NCBI RefSeq assembly: GCF_013035425.1
Contig: NZ_WQHX01000001.1
Coordinates: forward strand, 248,001-312,000
Length of the DNA: 64,000 bases
DNA from: Ruegeria arenilitoris
Lineage (GTDB): Bacteria; Pseudomonadota; Alphaproteobacteria; Rhodobacterales; Rhodobacteraceae
Direction of reading: 5' to 3'
Below, one piece after another: positions 6,481 to 26,254 of the stretch. A program made the position numbers and the translations under genes. How positions within the stretch are numbered: position 1 is the stretch's first letter; each line of letters opens with the position of its first letter. The notes beneath the pieces were generated by a model, which was given only the letters and a program-made list of their open reading frames with translations, was not told the origin of the DNA and made no database searches.

Positions 6481-6904
6481 AGTTGGCCTCGAAATCATCC
6501 AGTATGGTCGTTACTCGCGCCCTTACGATTGCAATAAAACTCTGATCCTGTTTGGTCAGGGCCGATTCAAACTCGGCCAAAAGGTAAGATATTTCGGCGC
6601 GATCTTCGCCCAAGGCCATCACATAACATCGCTCCAATCGAGCTTTGACAGCGACGTTCTCTTGCTCATCTCTTGGGTGTACTTTGAGCGCCTCAAGCTT
6701 GGCGAGCCGCGCCGCAATGTCCTTTTCGTCAAGCTCGCCCGATAGTTTGTGCAAAGTACGGCTAAAAGCGGGTTTTTGTGTGTTAGAAACGCCCAATATG
6801 GAGTTTGTGAACAGCTGCTTCCTTGGCTCACGCAATCGATCGTAATTTACAGGACTTGAGCAATCAGCGATTTTGGCGCCTTGGGAAAGCACTGATCGTT
6901 TCAA
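6467..6904 (-). CDS. C-terminal fragment of an HscC-like Hsp70, probable relic
   Basis: From about residue 50 on, the 145-codon frame reads like the helical tail of HscC-type Hsp70 proteins (GELDEKDIAARLAKLEALKV, then HPRDEQENVAVKARLERCY, then two long helices). The ATPase domain and the substrate-binding beta domain are missing. The 44 residues before the tail have no Hsp70 pattern, and no Hsp70 coding trace is visible upstream in any frame. The only start is a TTG at 6904 without a convincing ribosome site. It still overlaps the J-domain gene, as in intact hsp70-dnaJ pairs. I read it as the 3' end of a deleted chaperone gene. The alternative is a short stand-alone helical protein. Confidence 0.45.
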   Translation of the reverse strand: MKRSVLSQGAKIADCSSPVNYDRLREPRKQLFTNSILGVSNTQKPAFSRTLHKLSGELDEKDIAARLAKLEALKVHPRDEQENVAVKARLERCYVMALGEDRAEISYLLAEFESALTKQDQSFIAIVRARVTTILDDFEANYVRF

Positions 6905-16616: not shown

Positions 16617-17872
16617 TAGTCCCTCCCTGCCCAGTGAAGCCAAACAGCTGCTGTCCACGTGAACGCATTGCCGCCCGCCGGGCTGCCAGAAATCGGGTCG
16701 AAATACTCTGCAAACCCATATGTAGAGATTAATTCTTTAGTCTTTACACGCAGTTCTTCCGCCCGTTGTTCATGACCCATTTCCGCCAAACCGAACCCGA
16801 TCATCATGTTCATGAACGCCCATGTCGGACCGCGCCAATATCGTCGCGCATCAAAGTTCGGCATGGACGTATCATAGCTTGGAACGGGAAAAGGTACCGA
16901 CGCCAATACCGCCTTCAATCGATCCAACATTTTTTCTGATTCAATCCCTGCGTACCAACAAAGGTACGAAGCGTTCGAAATGCTGCCTGACCATTCTTTG
17001 GTCCTTGCATCACGCGAGTCAAAAACGCCCAGATCTTCGTTCCAAAGTGAGCTTGCACCTACTTCCAAGTCAGCGATATCCGCGCCCAGACCTTCGGCGT
17101 CCAATCCCAGTTGTTCACTAATGGCCAACAAGTCCCTCGCCGCCCGCAATGTCGTGAATGTCATTGTCGGATCTGCAACACGAAACGGATTTTGCGTTAA
17201 CAGGGCTTGCTGGTCCCATCCAGCCTGACGACCGATTTGAACCAGTTTTATGTAACGGTCATAGTCGAATTTGGTGGGTCGATCCTCGCTGTTTACATGA
17301 CTCGTGTCACGACGCTGGTATTCACCGACATCCGAGGCATCTATGCGCGCCATCGCTTTGTCCCAGTCGGGTGCATTGTCACGTCCGGCTTCCCAGGGAT
17401 GGGTCGTGCAAACAGCGCCATGATCATCCAGGCGCCACTTCATAATCCACCGATGCCAAGCCAGCATTTTGGGGAAAAGCTCGCGAATGCGCGTTTCTCC
17501 GGCGTCGGCGTCTTGTTCCCAGATTTTCCGGGCCATCGTTGCTGCGAGGGGTGGTTGAATGATTCCAGAGGAAGGTATCGGTCCGTCGCACCCCCACACA
17601 TCAGGACCGGGGAAGTATCCGTCATCTTGTTGATGAAACAAGATATGAGGAACCATTCCGTCGGTCCATTGGCCTGTGAACAACGTCTCGATTTCGATCC
17701 AGGCTCGGTCAATATCAAACTGGGCAAAGCCCAGCGCGGCAATCGCGCTGTCCCAATTCCATTGATATGGATAGAGACCCTCGGTCGGGATCGTGTACCC
17801 ACCGCGGTCATTTGAAATCAGGATGTTTCGCGCCTCGCGATCAGGGTTAGTATGTTGATTCATCAGTGTCAT
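16616..17872 (-). CDS. GH63-family glucosylglycerate/mannosylglycerate hydrolase (probable)
   Basis: 418 residues of an (alpha/alpha)6-barrel glycosidase. Motifs match bacterial GH63 glucosyl-/mannosylglycerate hydrolases: YPYQWNWDSAIAALGF near residue 35, GQWTDGMVPHILF (about 67), GYFPGP, SSGIIQPP, HPWEAGRDNAPDWDKA (about 158, expected to carry the acid Asp), EYQRRDTSHV, YWRGPTWAFMNMM and the C-terminal FAEYFDPISG with SFTW-like NAFTWTAAVWLHWA. The enzymes split glucosylglycerate or mannosylglycerate, compatible solutes of marine microbes. No signal peptide, so the solute is hydrolysed after uptake. The ATG at 17872 overlaps the permease stop; the ATG at 17863 has better-spaced AAAGG and may be the true start. 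Substrate choice is inference. Confidence 0.75.
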   Translation of the reverse strand: MTLMNQHTNPDREARNILISNDRGGYTIPTEGLYPYQWNWDSAIAALGFAQFDIDRAWIEIETLFTGQWTDGMVPHILFHQQDDGYFPGPDVWGCDGPIPSSGIIQPPLAATMARKIWEQDADAGETRIRELFPKMLAWHRWIMKWRLDDHGAVCTTHPWEAGRDNAPDWDKAMARIDASDVGEYQRRDTSHVNSEDRPTKFDYDRYIKLVQIGRQAGWDQQALLTQNPFRVADPTMTFTTLRAARDLLAISEQLGLDAEGLGADIADLEVGASSLWNEDLGVFDSRDARTKEWSGSISNASYLCWYAGIESEKMLDRLKAVLASVPFPVPSYDTSMPNFDARRYWRGPTWAFMNMMIGFGLAEMGHEQRAEELRVKTKELISTYGFAEYFDPISGSPAGGNAFTWTAAVWLHWAGRD

Positions 17873-19077
17873 CCTTTGACGGACCCCGCAGTCAGGCCCT
17901 TGGTCATGAAACGTTCGAGTCCTAAAAACAGCGCCATAATCGGAACGGTGGCAATCACCGCACCGGCCATCAGGTGCTGTCGTGGAATTTCTGAGGAATT
18001 CAACATTGTGACCCCTCGGGTAAGTGTGAATTTGGACGGGTCATCCAAAAGCATGAAAGCCAACAGGAATTCGTTCCAAGCAATCATAAAGACGTATAGA
18101 GACACCGAAGCCAGCGCAGGTAAGCTAAGCGGAAGTGTAATTTTCCAGATTACCGAAATGCGCGAAAGCCCATCCATTAGACCCGCCTCTTCAACTTCTG
18201 TCGGTAAGCCGCGGAAATAACCCTGCAGCATATAAAGTGCGACCGGGATCGTTGTAACCGGATAAATCATAACGATGCCAAGTATCGAATTGCGCAGACC
18301 TGTTAGTGAGAAGGCGATATAGATCGGCAACGCCAGAACGATCATCGGCACCATGTAAATCAACAAGATCGAGCGCGAGAAAGCCTTTTGTCCTTTGAAC
18401 CGAAACCGCGCCACCGCATAGGCACCTGGTACGCTGAACAACAAAGTGATGAACACCGTCAGCACCGAGACATAGAATGACGTCCAAAGATAGGTACCGA
18501 AATTGAAGTCGCGGAACAGTTCGGTATAGCTGCGGAACAGCGCGGTACCTTGACTAAGATCCAGTGAAAAATCCAAGGGGTTCTGAAGTAGCGCCTGTTG
18601 CGACTTCAAACTCGTCATAACCATCACGTAGAAGGGTATGACAACGATTGCCGTGAAGAATATATATCCGAAACCGGTACAAAAGCGGATCACCGCATCT
18701 TCGTATTCATGACGAGTTAGCTCTCCAAATGGCAGTTCCTTTAGGATTTCTGCCATCGACAAATGCATCACCAAGGCGATTGACCCCACGGTGATCAACA
18801 ACGCCAAAAGTGTGGTTCCAGACCCAATCAGAACAGGTCCGATCCCTGTCAGGCAAGACAAACCCAAAAACAACGCGACTCCCAAACGTGCAGTCGCATG
18901 CCGGACCGGAAAGCGGACATAGATCAACCCGGCAACCGCGCCCCAAATCACGCTGAACAGAACCTGCGGACGAAATGCAGCACCAGTGGCAAAGGACATG
19001 GTCACCGCTACGGTTGTCGCAATAACGACCAACCAAAGTGCGCCAAGGAGAGGGCCGGTTACAAATCCATTGCGCAT
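17869..19077 (-). CDS. ABC sugar permease (MalG type) with extra N-terminal membrane helices
   Basis: 402 residues from ATG 19077, whose ATG overlaps the stop of the first permease (TGATG). The C-terminal 280 residues form a normal MalG-type permease with the EAA loop EEAGLMDGLSRISVIWKITL near residue 310. The N-terminal 120 residues add about four hydrophobic helices (GPLLGALWLVVIATTVAVTM, VLFSVIWGAVAGLIYV, LGVALFLGLSCLTGIGPVLI, LLALLITVGSIALVMHL) that standard MalG proteins lack. It imports the operon substrate with its partner permease. It overlaps the GH63 gene by four bases. Confidence 0.9.
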   Translation of the reverse strand: MRNGFVTGPLLGALWLVVIATTVAVTMSFATGAAFRPQVLFSVIWGAVAGLIYVRFPVRHATARLGVALFLGLSCLTGIGPVLIGSGTTLLALLITVGSIALVMHLSMAEILKELPFGELTRHEYEDAVIRFCTGFGYIFFTAIVVIPFYVMVMTSLKSQQALLQNPLDFSLDLSQGTALFRSYTELFRDFNFGTYLWTSFYVSVLTVFITLLFSVPGAYAVARFRFKGQKAFSRSILLIYMVPMIVLALPIYIAFSLTGLRNSILGIVMIYPVTTIPVALYMLQGYFRGLPTEVEEAGLMDGLSRISVIWKITLPLSLPALASVSLYVFMIAWNEFLLAFMLLDDPSKFTLTRGVTMLNSSEIPRQHLMAGAVIATVPIMALFLGLERFMTKGLTAGSVKG

Positions 19078-20312
19078 CACAAGCCCTCCTCTCGGCTGAT
19101 AAATCGGAAGAAGACAAAGCTGAACGCAAGTAAACACATCAGGATTACAACCGCGACTGCAGCGCCAGCCCCAATGTTAGAGATCGCAAAAGCCTGCTCG
19201 TAGACATTCACGGTCAGGGTGCGCGTACCTGCATTGCCACCGGTCAACAAAAAGATGTCGTCGAACTTGTTGAATGTCCAAATGAACCGCAAAAGGAACA
19301 GCACCGATAGAATGCCCAATAATTGAGGGATACTCAGCAACCAAAACTTCTGAAACGGAGAGGCACCATCCATATCTGCGGCCTCGTACATGCTGGAGTC
19401 GATTGACTGCATCCGGGCTAGAATGAACAGGAAAGACAAAGGGAAATAACGCCAGATCTCGAACACCGTAACCATGATCAAAGCGAGCGGACGTTCACCA
19501 AAAAAGTTGATCGGATCCTCACTAAGGCCCATCTGCACCAACAACGCATTGGCCGAGCCTGAAAATGGGTCGAACAAAGTGACCCAGGTAAATGCGACGG
19601 CGATGACTGGCGCGACATAAGGGAACAAGTAAAGGCCCCGGATAAAGCCCTGACCCCGAAAACTTTTGTTCAGCAAAAGGGCCGCGAAAAGGCCCATAAC
19701 CAAGGCGCCGATGGTACCGAAAACAGTATAAAAAAGGGTCACCCACAAAACGCCCCAAAATTCTGAACCGTCAAAGACCCTGGCAAAGTTTTCAAGGCTG
19801 AACTCAAAATTGGTCAGAATATTCGGGCCGCTTCCGGTCAAAATTGGTACAGATCCTTCCACCAAATTTTCGAAAGATTCCGCTTCGCCATCAATTGCGA
19901 CCGGAATTCGGATACGCTCGCGCTGACCGCCCTCGAGTGTGCCAAAATCACAGAATAGATCGCGCCCTTCTAATTGGCATGGAGCAGTGATCTCTGATGT
20001 CGGAGTCATGCCCTCAGGGAGAGTGTCACTGATCGTCACTCCCGCGACTGCAATCTCCTGGCTGGAATTGCGTAGACGGTACTCGATCCGCAGGTCCTCA
20101 CCGGAACCGCGCAGACTCTCGCGCACCACTGGCGCAGGTGGGCGAAGGTCAGATAGGGTGAAAGGTTTGAAACTGATCCAGATAATGGCCAGCAGAGGCA
20201 AGATCACAACCAGTGAGACGCTGATCAGTGTCGGGGCCAGAAGCGCCCATGCCAAACGCGCCTCGCGTTTCGCAAGCGCTCCCGTGCCGGTCGGAGGGAC
20301 AGCCGAAGACAT
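19077..20312 (-). CDS. ABC sugar permease (MalF type) with inserted periplasmic DUF11-like domain
   Basis: 411 residues. After the first membrane helix (about 22-47) there is a periplasmic insert of about 110 residues (about 52-160) before the second helix. The insert reads like a DUF11/Ig-like repeat: LRIEYRLRNSSQEIAVAGVT, then ISDTLPEGMTPTSEI, then CDFGTLEGGQRERIRIPV. It contains two cysteines (about C112, C121) that could pair. The remainder is a normal MalF-type permease with the EAA loop YEAADMDGASPFQKFWLLSI. MalF of E. coli also has a large periplasmic P2 loop of Ig type, which contacts the binding protein, so a similar docking role is likely. It follows the binding protein gene after a hairpin-containing 62-base gap. 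Confidence 0.9.
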   Translation of the reverse strand: MSSAVPPTGTGALAKREARLAWALLAPTLISVSLVVILPLLAIIWISFKPFTLSDLRPPAPVVRESLRGSGEDLRIEYRLRNSSQEIAVAGVTISDTLPEGMTPTSEITAPCQLEGRDLFCDFGTLEGGQRERIRIPVAIDGEAESFENLVEGSVPILTGSGPNILTNFEFSLENFARVFDGSEFWGVLWVTLFYTVFGTIGALVMGLFAALLLNKSFRGQGFIRGLYLFPYVAPVIAVAFTWVTLFDPFSGSANALLVQMGLSEDPINFFGERPLALIMVTVFEIWRYFPLSFLFILARMQSIDSSMYEAADMDGASPFQKFWLLSIPQLLGILSVLFLLRFIWTFNKFDDIFLLTGGNAGTRTLTVNVYEQAFAISNIGAGAAVAVVILMCLLAFSFVFFRFISREEGL

Positions 20313-20334
20313 GGGATACCTCGATGGGTTATGT

Positions 20335-20356
20335 GCAGCGACGCGAACGTCGCTGC
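20335..20356 (-). promoter_or_regulatory. Intercistronic hairpin between binding protein and permease genes
   Basis: GCAGCGAC (20335-20342) and GTCGCTGC (20349-20356) form a perfect eight-base stem with a six-base loop, in the 62-base gap after the binding-protein stop. Without a T tract it is more likely an mRNA-stabilising or attenuating structure than a full terminator. Confidence 0.6.
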
Positions 20357-20374
20357 GGTATTAACAAGCGGAAC

Positions 20375-21730
20375 TTATTGAACTTTAGCGAGTTCTTCGT
20401 TCATAGCGGCAACAGCGGCCGCAGCATCGAGCTCATCGTCGATATACTGACGGACAATACGGTTGATCGCCTGGCTGTTAATCATTTTCGATGCCAGCGA
20501 GAGCTGACCTTCGGTGACTCCCCAACGCTGAGCGACATCCAAACCTCCGACAATTTCATCGATCATGGCCTGGTCGTAAAGTTCACCCAAAGGTGCCTTG
20601 CGATCTACGCCGACCGGTAACTCTGCCCACGCTTCTGAGAACGCTGTTGGGTTGTCAGCATTTCCACGTCGGACGGGGAATTTACCTTCGGGCGCAATAG
20701 CCAATGTCTGGGTATAGCCCTGATCCATTGCGTATTTCACAAATTCCATGGCGGCATCGGTATCCGCATCATTGGTGATGCCGAAATACCGAACATCGCC
20801 CCATGCAGCTCCGTCCGGATTGGACGGGCCCGAAAAGTTGGTGACAATTCCAGTCTTGCTGGCCAAATCGCGAGAGGTCGGATCATCGTTGATGGTGGGC
20901 GGAGCGCTGTCGCGAAGGCCGGCCAATTCGTCCAGAATAAACGGCGACCAGATGATCATTGCCGCCTTGCCATCAAAGTAAAGTTCGCGCGACTGCTTCC
21001 AATACAGTTCCCCCGGAGGCGAAGCTTTGGAAATGGCTTTGTAAAAGTCCAGTACCTCTGTTGTTTTGGCCTCGTCCAACGGCTGGAAACCGTCCGGACC
21101 AACTGGGCTAACTCCGTTTGCCAGGAAAACATGTTCCAACACTTGGCTCATGAAGTTTTCGTCCACCTTGGTGGCTGCAACGAATCCATACATGTCCGGC
21201 GGACTATGCAGAGCTTCCAAGGCAGCCTCGACCGCAGCATAAGAACTCGGCGCGTCTAACCCTTTTTCGTCAAACAAATCTTTGCGGTACACAACCATTT
21301 GGGTCCAGCCGTCGACCGGCACGGATGCCGTTTCGCCGTTGAACGCAGCCATTGCAAGAGCTCCCGGAGCGAAAGTATCTGCGCCTAGCTCCTCAACCAC
21401 TTCTGTTGCCGCTTCCGTGTCCAGAATACCCGCTTCAGCCCAAGGCAGAGCATACTGCAACGGATGATAAACAACGTCCGGCAGATCGCCTGCTGCAAAT
21501 GCGGCTGTGGCACGTGTTCCCAGATCGGTTTCGGTCACCGGGATGACTTCGACAGTAGTTCCGGTTTCAGCCTTGAATTGATCAGCCATTTCCTGCTGCT
21601 TTGCCAACCGTTCGGGTTGCTCTTCCGTCGTCCAAAAACGGATCGTGTCCGCGTGCGCAGATACCGCTGCCAGTATCAACGCAAGCGATGATCCAAGCAT
21701 CAGCCTGGATGCCTTGGGTGTAAGTTTCAT
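20375..21730 (-). CDS. ABC sugar-binding protein (family 1), probable glycosylglycerate receptor
   Basis: 451 residues with a Sec signal peptide (SSLALILAAVSAHA/DTIRF). The mature chain has the pattern of carbohydrate-binding family 1 proteins: IRFWTTEEQPERLAKQQEMA near the start, DLPDVVYHPL, GKAAMIIWSPFILDEL, and the C-terminal helical region (GVTEGQLSLASKMINSQAIN). It sits in the periplasm and delivers substrate to the two permeases encoded downstream. Its start overlaps the stop of the LacI-type regulator (ATGA), so regulator and transporter are made from one mRNA. Resembles AglE/ThuE-type alpha-glucoside receptors; with the GH63 gene, glucosyl- or mannosylglycerate is the best guess. Confidence 0.88.
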   Translation of the reverse strand: MKLTPKASRLMLGSSLALILAAVSAHADTIRFWTTEEQPERLAKQQEMADQFKAETGTTVEVIPVTETDLGTRATAAFAAGDLPDVVYHPLQYALPWAEAGILDTEAATEVVEELGADTFAPGALAMAAFNGETASVPVDGWTQMVVYRKDLFDEKGLDAPSSYAAVEAALEALHSPPDMYGFVAATKVDENFMSQVLEHVFLANGVSPVGPDGFQPLDEAKTTEVLDFYKAISKASPPGELYWKQSRELYFDGKAAMIIWSPFILDELAGLRDSAPPTINDDPTSRDLASKTGIVTNFSGPSNPDGAAWGDVRYFGITNDADTDAAMEFVKYAMDQGYTQTLAIAPEGKFPVRRGNADNPTAFSEAWAELPVGVDRKAPLGELYDQAMIDEIVGGLDVAQRWGVTEGQLSLASKMINSQAINRIVRQYIDDELDAAAAVAAMNEELAKVQ

Positions 21731-22887
21731 AGTCGGTCTCCTCCCCGGTTATGATCATTGAGATTTACAATTTTTAGCGCCAGATCCTCGGACTTCAGCC
21801 GCGGCGGCCCATCGGATTGTCGTTCTATAAGAACAGCTTCGCTGAGTTCGCGTAAGTCTTTAGGTTGCTCGCCCCGCGTCTGGCGGATCAGCAATGTTGC
21901 AAGCCGCTCCCCTGCCCGATGCGAGTCCACACTGAACGTCGTGAGCCCCGGACTGACATATTGGCACTCCGGGATGCCGTCGTACCCAATGACGGAAACA
22001 TCGCGTCCGATTTCCAGATCCAAATCCCTACAAACAGAATAACAGCCTAAAGCAGCCAAGTCGGTCGCAAAAACGATAGCCGTCGGCGGGTTTTTCAGGT
22101 TCATCAAAGCCCGCGCTTCCAAAGCTCCTTCTTCGCGCGTGCGCGCGCCATCCCGGATTAATTCAGGATCAAATTCCAAGCCCGCGGCTTTCAGACCGTC
22201 AACATATCCGTCGCGGCGCAGGTGACTGTAATTGAACTTCGGATCACTACCGACGTAACCAATGCTGCTGTGTCCGAATTCGGCCAAACGAATGACCGCG
22301 TTTCTGATCGCCGTTTCGCCGGAAATATCGAACCAAGAGGTATTTTCCATTGCTGCGGCTTGACCGTATCCAGTCCGCCCATAAAGGATAAACGGTACCT
22401 TCAGCTCCCTTAGGTATTCAACTCGGGCATCTTCAACTTCCGTTCGCGGCAGAATAAACCCGTCGGCCTTGCGTTCTTCAACAAGCCTGCCCAGGACCTT
22501 GAGCATGTCCTTTTCTGACTTCGCCGTGGAAATAGTCATGGTCCAGTCAAACGAACTGGCTGCTTCACAAGCTCCGGAAAGAAAATCCTGCAAAAACGGA
22601 TTGTGCCTGTCGGGTTCTTCGCCATTAATAACCATCGCAATTGCCCGGACCTTACCTGTCCGGATAGCCTGCGCGTGGCTGAGCGGGCGATAACCCATCT
22701 TGCGCGCTGTGACCTCAACCCTTTTTCGCGTCGCGTCCGAAATATCCGAATAACCGTTCAGCGCGCGCGACACGGTGCTTTTCGAAAGCCCTAAGTGATA
22801 AGCCAGCTCATCAAGCTTCACCCGCCCTGTTGCGGACGCCGCACGAAGCTGGGATTCGCCTTTTTGCGCAGTGGGATTCGTCATCAT
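21727..22887 (-). CDS. LacI-family transcriptional regulator of the GH63/ABC operon
   Basis: About 386 residues. An HTH typical of LacI lies near residues 22-45 (KLDELAYHLGLSKSTVSRAL, NGYSDIS), a hinge (GYRPLSHAQAIR), then the periplasmic-binding-like effector domain (IGYVGSDPKFNYSHLRRDGY, AIVFATDLAALG, VSVIGYDGIPECQYVSPGLT). The frame is open to a TTG at 22923, but that would run through a perfect 16-base palindrome; the ATGs at 22887 and 22884 are better starts. It is the first gene of the operon (lacI, binding protein, two permeases, GH63, ATPase), so it is probably autoregulated and releases DNA on binding the imported sugar or a product. Confidence 0.9.
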   Translation of the reverse strand: MMTNPTAQKGESQLRAASATGRVKLDELAYHLGLSKSTVSRALNGYSDISDATRKRVEVTARKMGYRPLSHAQAIRTGKVRAIAMVINGEEPDRHNPFLQDFLSGACEAASSFDWTMTISTAKSEKDMLKVLGRLVEERKADGFILPRTEVEDARVEYLRELKVPFILYGRTGYGQAAAMENTSWFDISGETAIRNAVIRLAEFGHSSIGYVGSDPKFNYSHLRRDGYVDGLKAAGLEFDPELIRDGARTREEGALEARALMNLKNPPTAIVFATDLAALGCYSVCRDLDLEIGRDVSVIGYDGIPECQYVSPGLTTFSVDSHRAGERLATLLIRQTRGEQPKDLRELSEAVLIERQSDGPPRLKSEDLALKIVNLNDHNRGGDRL

Positions 22888-22904
22888 TCTTTCATTTAGT
22901 CGCT

Positions 22905-22920
22905 CCGAAACCGGTTTCGG
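22905..22920. promoter_or_regulatory. LacI-type operator palindrome
   Basis: CCGAAACCGGTTTCGG is a perfect 16-base palindrome with the central CG step typical of LacI-family operators. It sits 18 bases upstream of the regulator ATG at 22887, where a repressor would block the operon promoter. Confidence 0.75.
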
Positions 22921-23130
22921 CAACTAAAAAATGACCGGAATTAACTAAAAGCCGAATTTTATGGCCGTAAGAGGAGCACCGACGCCAAGTAAGGTATTCT
23001 GCGCGAGAAAAGGACCAATCACCCCAGTCCTATGAGTTTGCGTTCAATCTTGATCGCCAGAAAACGCGGCATTTAATCTGCGAAGTTTTCGTCGATCAAC
23101 ACTTTCAACATAGGATTTTAACAAATCCCT

Positions 23131-25089
23131 TCAGTTCGCCATCACTTGTTCCAGCACCGGGAAATGTTGCACAACAGTCTCGGTTGGAATGTCCTTAGGC
23201 AAAAACTCCAAGACAACTACTGCATCTCGGTTCGTTTCAAGAACCTTGCCAGCCTGAGTGTTGACGACGAAATGCCGAGGCTGATGGCCAGATGCGTTAA
23301 GAGTGAACCAATTCACATTTTCGGCCCAACTCACCCCTTCATGTACACCTCGGTCCAAAACTTCCAATTTTCGAAGCAACACCTCGCGACTATAGCGAGA
23401 CAACAACAAAAGCAGATGTTCGCGTGGAATCCATCCGCCATACGAATAGACCCCCGCAGACTTTTTCATCTGGCCAAATTCGTCGACCAAATCCGCCGCT
23501 TCTTCCTGAGATAGCCCATCGGTCACTTCGTAGTCGTAATACAGTTCAAGTACATTCCCAGGTTTTTGCACCACTTCAGAGACGCCATAGCTCTTTGGGT
23601 CCTTGGAGATTGGTGCATTATGCTCGTAGCTGAATACTCCAGTTCCCTCAGAATGGATGATATCCGCGTGATCAACTAGAAACTGGGCAGTTTCCATGGC
23701 TTCTTTGCGCGTTTCGGTAGGGAAACCAAAAAAGTTGAATGTGTGGTTCCAAATTCCAGCGTCATGCGCATCTTGCAGGTTCGCCAGCATTACGTCCTGA
23801 GTATTGTCCTTCTTCATGTGCCGCTGAATACGCTCATTTGCCGACTCCAAGCCGATATACAAAGAGCGAAAGCCAATGTCGTACATGCCCCTGTAGTGTT
23901 CAGGCTTAAAGTACTTTTCAAATTTATAAAGCCCGGTGAAATAGAACTTTCAAGGCGCAACGGTTTTTGGAAGATGCGTAAATAGTTTCGGCGGAATGGC
24001 TTCGTCATTTAGAGCGAAGTGTTTCACACCGTATTTCTCGCTCAATTCCTCAATAGTTTCCGCGAAAGTTTGGGGCTGCAACATTCTATATCGATCCCCA
24101 TAGATCATCCCGTGGTAGCAGAACGCACACTTGTCCCAATAGCAGCCGCGTGTTGTCAGCATTGGAAGAACTGTTTCGGGCGAGTAATAGCTGTTAAGAT
24201 CCAAATCGCTAAAATCCGGCACCGGTATCTGTTCCAACGTGACCTGAGGCGCCAGTTTGGTCTTAACGAGCTTCCCGTTTTTCAACAGGCAAAGGTTACT
24301 GCTTGGAGTTGCAAACGGATCTGAACATTCGAGCAACTCAACCAACGGTGATTCACCCTCGTACCTTAAAACGAAATCGAAGTATTTTTTGAAAAAATGA
24401 GAAATCATATTAGTCTTGTCGACAAGACGCGAGAAGACACTGCCACCTATTACGATTGGTACATCCGGAAAGACCTCCTTCAATACTCGCGAAAGTGTCA
24501 AACCCGCCAAGATCTGTTCCTGACCAATCACCGACAAGCCAAAGTAACGTGGCTCACTTTTGACCGCCCTGACCTTTTCTCGAAAGAAGGATAGGAAAGG
24601 ATTTATCTCAGGGTTCGAACAAAACTCGTCAATGCTGGGAATAGAAGATAGAACATCTGAAGTCGACAAGCTTGAAGTACCGACCTCGACAACTGGTTCA
24701 GCGGTAGAGAAAGCAAAAAGTAAACGCTTGAACGCTGTCACAGCAGTATAAAATTCGTCAATCGTCCGCAGGCAGCGTTCGCTTTTCAAGCCTTTAGCTT
24801 GTTGAGACTTACGATCAAAATCGCTGAGTATACCCAATGCCAGCAAAGCTTGGTTACGATAGCTGTCATGTTCTGGACCAAGGTCTTTTACATAACGGTC
24901 CAACCTGTCAATGGCCACTCGCAAACGCTGCCGCGAAATGAAGTAGTCGTAAAACTCCACATTCCAATCAGATTGCTTTACTGCGAACCCCCTTTCTACC
25001 AAAAAGGCTTTGAGCGCTGGCGTGCTGAGGAACGGCTGAAACGGCGACCATTGCGGTGGAAAAATGAGATGAATATCTAAATTTTCCAT
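23131..25089 (-). CDS. Radical SAM peptide maturase, interrupted by an in-frame TGA
   Basis: One frame of 652 codons from ATG 25089 to TGA 23131, broken only by TGA at codon 380 (23952-23950). Residues 1-240 resemble the N-terminal region of B12-dependent radical SAM proteins (IFPPQWSPFQPFLSTPALKA; FGLSVIGQEQILAGLTLSR; VPIVIGGS), though no DxHxxG cobalamin motif is obvious. The cluster-binding motif is CYWDKCAFC (C316, C321, C324; CX4CX2C), a spacing known in RiPP-linked members. After the TGA the same frame continues with conserved core sequence (FRSLYIGLESANERIQRH; WNHTFNFFGFPTET). The residue at the TGA may be Trp (one base from TGG) or selenocysteine; otherwise the gene is dead. It follows the repeat-peptide gene by 105 bases, which suggests that peptide as substrate. 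Confidence 0.72.
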
Positions 25090-25194
25090 AATCTTATTCC
25101 CCGCAGAGAGACGGCAGTCAGAAAACCAAACGTGAATTCGACCACTCGTCAAATGCTCGCGACCTTTAGATCGCAAACATTCGAACTAAATGGC

Positions 25195-25587
25195 CTACTT
25201 TCGCAATCGACGAGGCTTGGAAGACCCTTCGGCAAGCATGTCCGAAGATCCCTGATTCTGATTTTGATTGTCCATTACCTCTTCGCCGCCACCCATAAGA
25301 ACCGTCTTCAGGTTTTGAAGCGCAGCCGGCTTCATGGCCAACAATTCTTCCATTTTTCCCTGGTTTTGATTTTGGTTGTCCATGACTTCTTCGCCACCGC
25401 CCACCGACCCAATACCGACTTCGCGAAGGATCTCGGGCTTCATGCGCGAAATCTCCTCAAGGCTGCCTTGGTTCTGGTTCTGATTGTCTGATAGGGCGAA
25501 GTCGTCCGGCAGGGAAGCTTCGATTTCTCTTAGCAAATTTGGAGCAAGGTTGTCTTTGAGAACGCCGAGCACACTAAGTTTGTCCAT
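25195..25587 (-). CDS. Putative RiPP precursor with three DNQNQNQG blocks
   Basis: 130 residues from ATG 25587, preceded by AGGAG at six bases; the frame opens 22 codons earlier without a ribosome site. Residues 1-33 (MDKLSVLGVLKDNLAPNLLR, EIEASLPDDFALS) look like a helical leader. Then DNQNQNQG occurs at 34-41, 70-77 and 106-113, exactly 36 residues apart. Between them are two related spacers, each with an EE..MKP.L helix and ending in GGGEEVM. The C-terminus is basic (SSKPRRLRK). There is no signal peptide, double-glycine protease site of bacteriocin type, or Cys. Conserved repeats next to a radical SAM enzyme fit a multicore RiPP precursor. The modification, likely on Asn or Gln residues, and the product are unknown; the family is not one I recognise. 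Confidence 0.8.
   Translation of the reverse strand: MDKLSVLGVLKDNLAPNLLREIEASLPDDFALSDNQNQNQGSLEEISRMKPEILREVGIGSVGGGEEVMDNQNQNQGKMEELLAMKPAALQNLKTVLMGGGEEVMDNQNQNQGSSDMLAEGSSKPRRLRK
25249..25488 (-). repeat. Three tandem 108-base coding repeats (36-residue period)
   Basis: The DNQNQNQG coding blocks lie at 25465-25488, 25357-25380 and 25249-25272, each 108 bases from the next. All six Asn/Gln codons and the Gly codon differ at the third base in at least one copy, while the amino acids never change. The spacers are diverged but alignable. It is an old duplication kept under protein-level selection, not a recent DNA repeat. Confidence 0.88.
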
Positions 25588-26254
25588 GGGAAACTCCTGA
25601 TCAAATAAGCTTGGCAATCTCAACTCAATAACACAATATAAAGATGTTTGCAATTATTTAAAGCAATTTTAGGTTGTTCACTTTTAAAGTGCTAATAAAT
25701 TTAAGTGTTTTAGTTTTTGTTGTATAAATAGAAATAAAACTCCTTCTTTAGACGGATTTATTTCAGGATCTTTGCTGAAAGGTGCAATAATTTTTTCCTT
25801 TGATATTTCCTAAGTTATTTGTGTTTACGCTAGTGGTCGTCCGGTTTTTACATGACCCGCTAATAGTTTACTTTTAGTTGTGCTTGGGCGGCTGGCCAAA
25901 GTGAAAAGCTGCGTGCCTTTAACTAGAAGGCTATCATCCCTCGGGTTTTTACGACTTAAATCCCGACGAGACAAAGGCCATTGTCGCGGCTTGTCTTACC
26001 TAAAAAGATAGTGATCGCTAGCGAGATCGATGACCTGAGTTCTGCACTTAAACTGGGCTGAGCCACGGCAAATGGATGGATTGATTTCATGTCTTGCACC
26101 AAACCAGTCGTCTAAACCTTAGGCACAGCGCACAGTTCTGCCCCACTTGTCACCGCAATCTGGGCGAAAAAGCTTTTCTGAAACGAAATGGACAGTCAGG
26201 CTGCTGGCAAGGTTGTGCTACAGATAATTCCATCGAGACTATGGAGGACTCTCA
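25588..26254. other. AT-rich intergenic stretch upstream of the RiPP-like operon
   Basis: 667 bases with no credible gene. The part next to the peptide gene (about 25620-25860) is far richer in A/T than its neighbours, with runs such as AATTATTTAAAG and a CACTTT-T-AAAGTG palindrome at 25679-25691. The promoter of the minus-strand peptide/radical SAM operon and that of the plus-strand hydrolase must lie here. The middle part (25860-26200) shows only short broken frames. Confidence 0.45.

Follow-up and report, generated by a model that had tools for sequence, protein, structure and literature searches.

The window analysed here, a stretch of 64,000 nucleotides from Ruegeria arenilitoris, contains a small peptide gene followed by an enzyme gene that together probably form a rare two-gene RiPP cassette, in which a B12-type radical SAM enzyme would modify the Asn/Gln-rich (NQ) core of the precursor encoded just upstream. 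Related pairs are found in a handful of other genomes, and the cassette looks like an undescribed modified-peptide family present in a few alphaproteobacteria. Table 1 presents the features of the locus.

Table 1. Coordinates of the cassette and its parts in the R. arenilitoris window.
Feature	Position	Strand	Remarks
Putative RiPP precursor, 130 aa	25195..25587	minus	ATG at 25587; homologues in genome scan
Core block 1, DNQNQNQG, residues 34-41	25465..25488	minus	Coordinates derived from residue numbers
Core block 2, DNQNQNQG, residues 70-77	25357..25380	minus	Coordinates derived from residue numbers
Core block 3, DNQNQNQG, residues 106-113	25249..25272	minus	Coordinates derived from residue numbers
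B12-type radical SAM enzyme, first piece, 379 codons	23950..25089	minus	Ends at TGA 23952-23950
Enzyme frame, second piece, 272 codons + stop	23131..23949	minus	69% identity to intact relative
Low-GC unit holding both genes	22933..26243		GC 45.9% vs 51.8% for remaining window

The precursor peptide

The peptide gene harbors an AGGAG-type ribosome site directly 5' of its ATG. As had been noticed in a sequence-only reading of this DNA, its 130-residue product carries three identical DNQNQNQG blocks, whose starts at residues 34, 70, and 106 give an exact 36-residue period. None of 20,000 shuffled versions of the sequence contained a repeated 8-mer, so that the repeats exceed chance. Tandem Repeats Finder returned no DNA tandem repeat (0 rows), and each of the three blocks is spelled with a different set of synonymous codons. 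Outside the core, modules 2 and 3 are clearly alike (similarity matched in 0 of 1000 shuffles), modules 1 and 2 show a weak likeness (10 of 1000), and modules 1 and 3 none (660 of 1000). These comparisons do not bear out a description of the peptide as three equal leader-core modules.

Homologous loci and conservation of the pair

A peptide scan of a genome collection covering 84,980 species gave 53 pattern matches, of which 4 were confirmed by tblastn and 49 failed. The confirmed homologues are encoded by an alphaproteobacterial MAG (L036), a Reyranella MAG from the same family (L037), Afifella marina (L038), and Ca. Devosia symbiotica (L039). The peptides of the first three are 122–125 aa long, each with three DNQNQNQG blocks, and are respectively 66%, 66%, and 59% identical to the window peptide. 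They are followed on the same strand, after 117, 104, and 81 bases, by genes for intact enzymes of 654–677 aa. Taking the A. marina enzyme as a reference, identity is 66% for L036, 67% for L037, and 59% for the window. The Ca. Devosia symbiotica peptide gene (L039:4050-4429) has a frameshifted leader with one intact and one damaged NQ block, and the start of its enzyme gene, at the contig end, contains an internal stop; both decayed genes nevertheless still lie side by side. Neighbouring genes otherwise differ between the cassette loci.

The pairing of a precursor with a radical SAM enzyme, originally proposed from the window, is borne out by these genomes. An enzyme gene adjoins all four confirmed peptide homologues (3 intact, 1 decayed), and among these four of the 53 pattern matches not a single peptide lacks a radical SAM partner. 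A small precursor gene linked to the gene of a modifying enzyme, as in RiPP systems, is thus found in the window, the three intact loci, the decayed locus, and the divergent locus described below, and the peptide-enzyme pairing is well supported.

Alignment of the homologues, which had been proposed as a check, identified DNQNQNQG as the invariant element: it is identical in 12 of 12 blocks of the four intact peptides (window, L036, L037, and L038). By contrast, leader, linkers, and tails vary among these peptides, which are 59–66% identical to that of the window; this is the pattern of conserved core and variable leader and linker known from RiPP precursors. The block codons vary within L036, L038, and the window, and are identical at the DNA level in all three blocks of L037. 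Between L036 and L037, the peptide genes show 13.0 synonymous and 1.0 non-synonymous differences and the enzyme genes 81 and 26, respectively. From this synonymous excess, both the peptide and the enzyme are judged to be under purifying selection, acting at the protein level.

A divergent single-core relative

A more divergent locus is present in a Devosia-family genome, the enzyme of which is 41% identical to that of L036 over residues 3-575 (E ≤ 1e-40). The enzyme gene starts 4 bases after the end of a 60-aa ORF, for which a GGAGG-type ribosome site is present. The peptide that it encodes ends HNNQNQNGRLIE and contains a single NNQNQNG core near the C-terminus. Shuffling this peptide yields NQNQN in 23 of 200,000 cases, and among 381,770 residues (ORFs of at least 50 aa from 56 sequences) NQNQN occurs in six ORFs, all six of which are precursors from the loci described here. 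The leader of the 60-aa peptide shows no similarity to those of its three-core counterparts, the three comparisons being matched by 498, 853, and 639 of 1000 shuffles. Enzyme and NQ core therefore seem to have been retained together despite changes in the leader and in the number of cores. This co-retention, on the basis of one genome, is the best indication that the core is the substrate.

An interrupted enzyme gene in the window

The radical SAM frame of the window begins with an ATG at 25089 on the minus strand, 105 bases after the peptide stop, and encodes the cluster C-YWDK-C-AF-C, corresponding to CX4CX2C. Spacing, strand, and cluster were thus correctly read from the letters. The same reading assumed a radical SAM gene running intact to 23131, which turned out to be mistaken: an in-frame TGA at codon 380 (23952-23950) splits the frame 25089-23131 into pieces of 379 and 272 codons. 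The first piece spans the N-terminal, cobalamin-binding-like region and the CX4CX2C cluster, and the second covers the rest of the radical SAM domain and the C-terminal region. Identity to the L036 enzyme amounts to 226 of 379 positions before the TGA and 189 of 272 after it. The codons after the TGA show no decay, implying that the stop arose recently, is tolerated, or stems from an error in sequencing.

The undecayed 272 codons would also agree with a gene that works by recoding, the TGA at codon 380 being read as selenocysteine or passed by readthrough. This is very improbable. The aligned residue in four intact relatives is an arginine, not a cysteine. No tRNA-Sec scored above the Rfam cut-off in the genome of the strain (150 of 571 candidates scored), and the sub-threshold rows checked, 8 out of 11, correspond to Ser, Leu, Tyr, Gly, Cys, and Trp tRNAs. 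Finally, the hairpin 3' of the TGA is not unusual (z 0.32). Based on the aligned arginine, the tRNA search, and the hairpin test, recoding was rejected and the gene is considered interrupted; its product probably has no activity in this strain, or else the gene was broken very recently or contains a sequencing error.

Enzyme family and a candidate recognition domain

The Radical_SAM domain (PF04055) is recognized in the intact copies with 57.5 and 55.4 bits, against a cut-off of 29.5, and the three cysteines that characterize radical SAM clusters are invariant across seven aligned enzymes. The B12-binding domain (PF02310) scores 23.4 and 27.2 bits in the intact copies (E 5.6e-5 and 3.8e-6) and 19.8 bits in the first piece of the window enzyme, all below the cut-off of 32.1. 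The best NCBIfam match of the intact copies is TIGR03975, with 88.9 and 94.4 bits (67.5 bits for the first piece of the window) for a cut-off of 281.85, and the second is ApyD (NF050148), with 75.5 and 71.4 bits for a cut-off of 750. Since these curated cut-offs are missed by a wide margin, the enzyme falls outside both the TIGR03975 and the ApyD families. A B12-type assignment is nevertheless supported by these two best matches, and the sequence profiles point to homology with B12 and radical SAM enzymes. The only solved structure reached by a sequence profile is OxsB (PDB 5ul2), with an E-value of 0.0042 over about 96 positions in the cobalamin-domain region.

RiPP recognition elements (RREs) are found in many RiPP systems, though not all. 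No PqqD-like domain was found in the enzyme with Pfam. Structure prediction for the last 128 residues of the Afifella enzyme, with four sequences as input, gave a beta-beta-beta-alpha-alpha-alpha model with a mean pLDDT of 53.5 (blocks of 61–72 after residue 60); a model of the full-length enzyme, with a mean pLDDT of 43.3, was too poor for use. Foldseek returned no match to the C-terminal model at E ≤ 0.001, and TM-scores were at most 0.27. Seven of the top 8 entries, none of them significant and with the aligned part of the longer targets unspecified, come from RiPP biosynthesis: the 8 comprise TbiB1 three times, a lasso B1 protein, two sactipeptide-synthase entries, TigE, and Elongator. Four of them are small stand-alone lasso B1 proteins, and we take TbiB1 and the lasso B1 proteins to be RREs. 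The RRE fold is described in PMC10635010 as three strands plus three helices, and ApyD is presented there as a cobalamin radical SAM enzyme that contains an RRE and produces beta-methyltyrosine. Together, the predicted strand and helix order and the identity of the top-ranked structures give a weak lead to a possible C-terminal RiPP-recognition domain in the enzyme.

Proposed mechanism and alternative readings

We infer a substrate relation with the precursor, a methylation, a recognition domain and, if the cores are released at all, their proteolytic release. The upstream gene would make a precursor of three units, each composed of a helix-like spacer and a DNQNQNQG core. The enzyme would bind this precursor, perhaps via the C-terminal RiPP-recognition-like domain. 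A 5'-deoxyadenosyl radical would then abstract a hydrogen from one of the carbons in an Asn or Gln side chain, and methylcobalamin would supply a methyl group to this unactivated carbon. Asn and/or Gln would be altered in each NQNQNQ core, three cores implying three rounds. That the modification is a C-methylation of Asn/Gln carbons in the NQ core is favored by a modest margin.

Other readings of the locus were considered. A mere chance neighbourhood, in which a radical SAM gene happens to lie next to an Asn/Gln-rich peptide that does something unrelated, would be compatible with the window alone and with nothing beyond it; it is scarcely credible, given that the pair recurs in Afifella, in two Reyranella-family genomes, in the decayed Devosia copy, and in the divergent Devosia-family genome, among neighbours that otherwise differ. 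If the pair is a genuine RiPP pair, the enzyme could still act without methylating, by epimerizing, cross-linking, or otherwise rearranging Asn/Gln, for instance into alternating D/L residues. A modification of every other residue would need a strict alternation of N and Q such as the core displays, but the best family scores of the enzyme are to C-methyltransferases, and peptide epimerases are not known to be B12-type, making this reading unlikely.

The modified peptide might also be kept whole, as a structural, binding, or sensor protein with the enzyme as its dedicated modifier. The loci have neither a protease nor an exporter gene in common, and the linkers between the cores are also conserved (MKP..L and GEEVMD segments), both of which speak for such a role. 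On the other side, RiPPs can rely on stand-alone proteases and exporters of the host, and the 60-aa relative carries its single core near the C-terminus like many RiPP precursors; retention of the whole protein is thus a minority possibility, though one to be taken seriously. The preferred reading, modification of the NQ core by the adjoining B12-type enzyme, can be taken one step further, to a new RiPP class defined by a mobile cassette of two genes that stands alone, with a single enzyme altering Asn/Gln carbons along three identical cores. Every repeat of the alternating NQNQNQ would then be altered, so that modified amides would occur at regular spacing in short peptides or in a whole protein. 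This extension is tentative, and we would not yet bet on it.

Relation to known systems

The cassette appears, from sequence comparison, to resemble pairs of B12 radical SAM enzymes and RiPP precursors while fitting none of the curated families tested. In the aminopyruvatide pathway of Burkholderia thailandensis, the RiPP precursor is likewise the substrate of a B12-type radical SAM enzyme, ApyD. Unlike that pathway, the cassette has no P450, MNIO, or RRE-partner genes nearby, and its core consists of Asn/Gln and contains no Tyr, the residue that ApyD methylates at the beta position. The cassette enzyme matches TIGR03975 (rSAM_ocin_1) over the B12 and radical SAM regions, but differs by its CX4CX2C cluster spacing and by a score below the cut-off. 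Proteusins of the polytheonamide/aeronamide type have Asn-rich patterned cores that undergo C-methylation by B12 radical SAM enzymes. By comparison, the cassette lacks a long nitrile-hydratase-like leader and an epimerase or N-methyltransferase gene, and its precursor has three short cores at a distance from each other, where proteusins have a single long one. OxsB acts on a nucleotide and not on a peptide, the proposed substrate of the cassette enzyme, and the sequence match between the two is weak.

No family above chance was obtained for the three-core precursors with Pfam, NCBIfam, PADLOC, or PHROGs: no NCBIfam model came within E 0.1, and the two Pfam matches (E 0.037 and 0.093) were far below the cut-off. 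The string DNQNQNQ is absent from the open-licence PMC literature, and no description of the cassette was found among the family models searched or in that literature. The original proposal of a new class is reasonable in the sense that none of these resources holds a family for the peptide or a mention of its core, and in that sense only.

Modification of a core made up of Asn/Gln alone would be a chemistry without a description in the literature searched. Enzymes that functionalize unactivated peptide carbons are sought after. The cassette is a minimal two-gene pair offering three identical target sites together with a natural single-core relative. Should Asn/Gln methylation be true, it would provide a compact model for the recognition of repeated cores by B12 radical SAM enzymes, as well as a tool for altering amide side chains. 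As triple-core and single-core versions both occur naturally, recognition and directionality are open to direct tests.

Genomic setting, distribution, and distant relatives

None of 304 windows of equal length is as low in GC as the unit holding the two genes. In 21 of 53 congeners, DNA similarity spans window positions 20400 to 22827-22932, where the neighbouring LacI-type gene starts, and in none of the 53 is 22933-26243 covered among the matches listed, with five candidates scored per genome. In a search of 61 genomes the peptide matched its own genome only; 36 of the remaining 60 are congeners. The low-GC two-gene unit has the appearance of a foreign insertion. The pair in the window is not adjoined by a protease, an exporter, or a second modifying enzyme, and comparison with the loci of its relatives revealed no protease or exporter gene shared by the cassette loci. 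The sugar transport operon and LacI-type gene at 17869-22923 of the window are collinear with a Ruegeria conchae plasmid (77.9% identity), which suggests a Ruegeria-like replicon. Within this operon, a sugar ABC permease gene (19077-20312) contains an inserted stretch of about 110 residues, unusual inside a permease, which presumably resembles a DUF11-like repeat domain.

At the thresholds used, the cassette was found in 1 of 11 Afifella-family genomes and 2 of 75 Reyranella-family genomes, and the divergent sibling in 1 of 136 Devosia-family genomes, where the decayed copy of Ca. Devosia symbiotica falls below the threshold. The wider order of the Devosia-family sibling genome gave 2 of 259, both previously found loci, and the order of L036 (76 genomes) gave the same two loci and no further ones. 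This rare and scattered occurrence fits with horizontal spread.

Matches to the enzyme were detected in 4 of 385 genomes of the class (E ≤ 1e-20), 9 of 394 of the family (E ≤ 1e-10), and 15 of 398 of the phylum (E ≤ 1e-25), the genome of the strain itself being counted in every sample; the other matches are 24–37% identical. Among 35 loci, those from the genome searches having a flank of at most 1.5 kb, the only ORFs with at least two [ND]Q[ND]Q motifs were two copies of the window's own peptide. Viral contigs contained no relative of the enzyme or the peptide. Plasmids gave no peptide relative and 27 records with distant enzymes, one of which, 26.7% identical, spans 80% or more of the query; an NQ peptide is absent in the five plasmid neighbourhoods viewed, with small ORFs listed near three.

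This most fully covered plasmid relative is encoded in Rhizobium phaseoli (L015:2290-8406), in the order S8 peptidase and ATP-binding protein genes, enzyme relative, and 88-aa ORF. The Sinorhizobium meliloti plasmid pAK76 (L017:4470-7972) carries a distant B12-type radical SAM gene with a flavoprotein gene upstream and, downstream, a 72-aa ORF (6586-6804) and two 2OG-Fe(II)-oxygenase-like ORFs; it looks like another RiPP-type cluster. At two further loci (L025 and L026), distant B12-type radical SAM enzymes are fused to long N-terminal TPR-like repeats.
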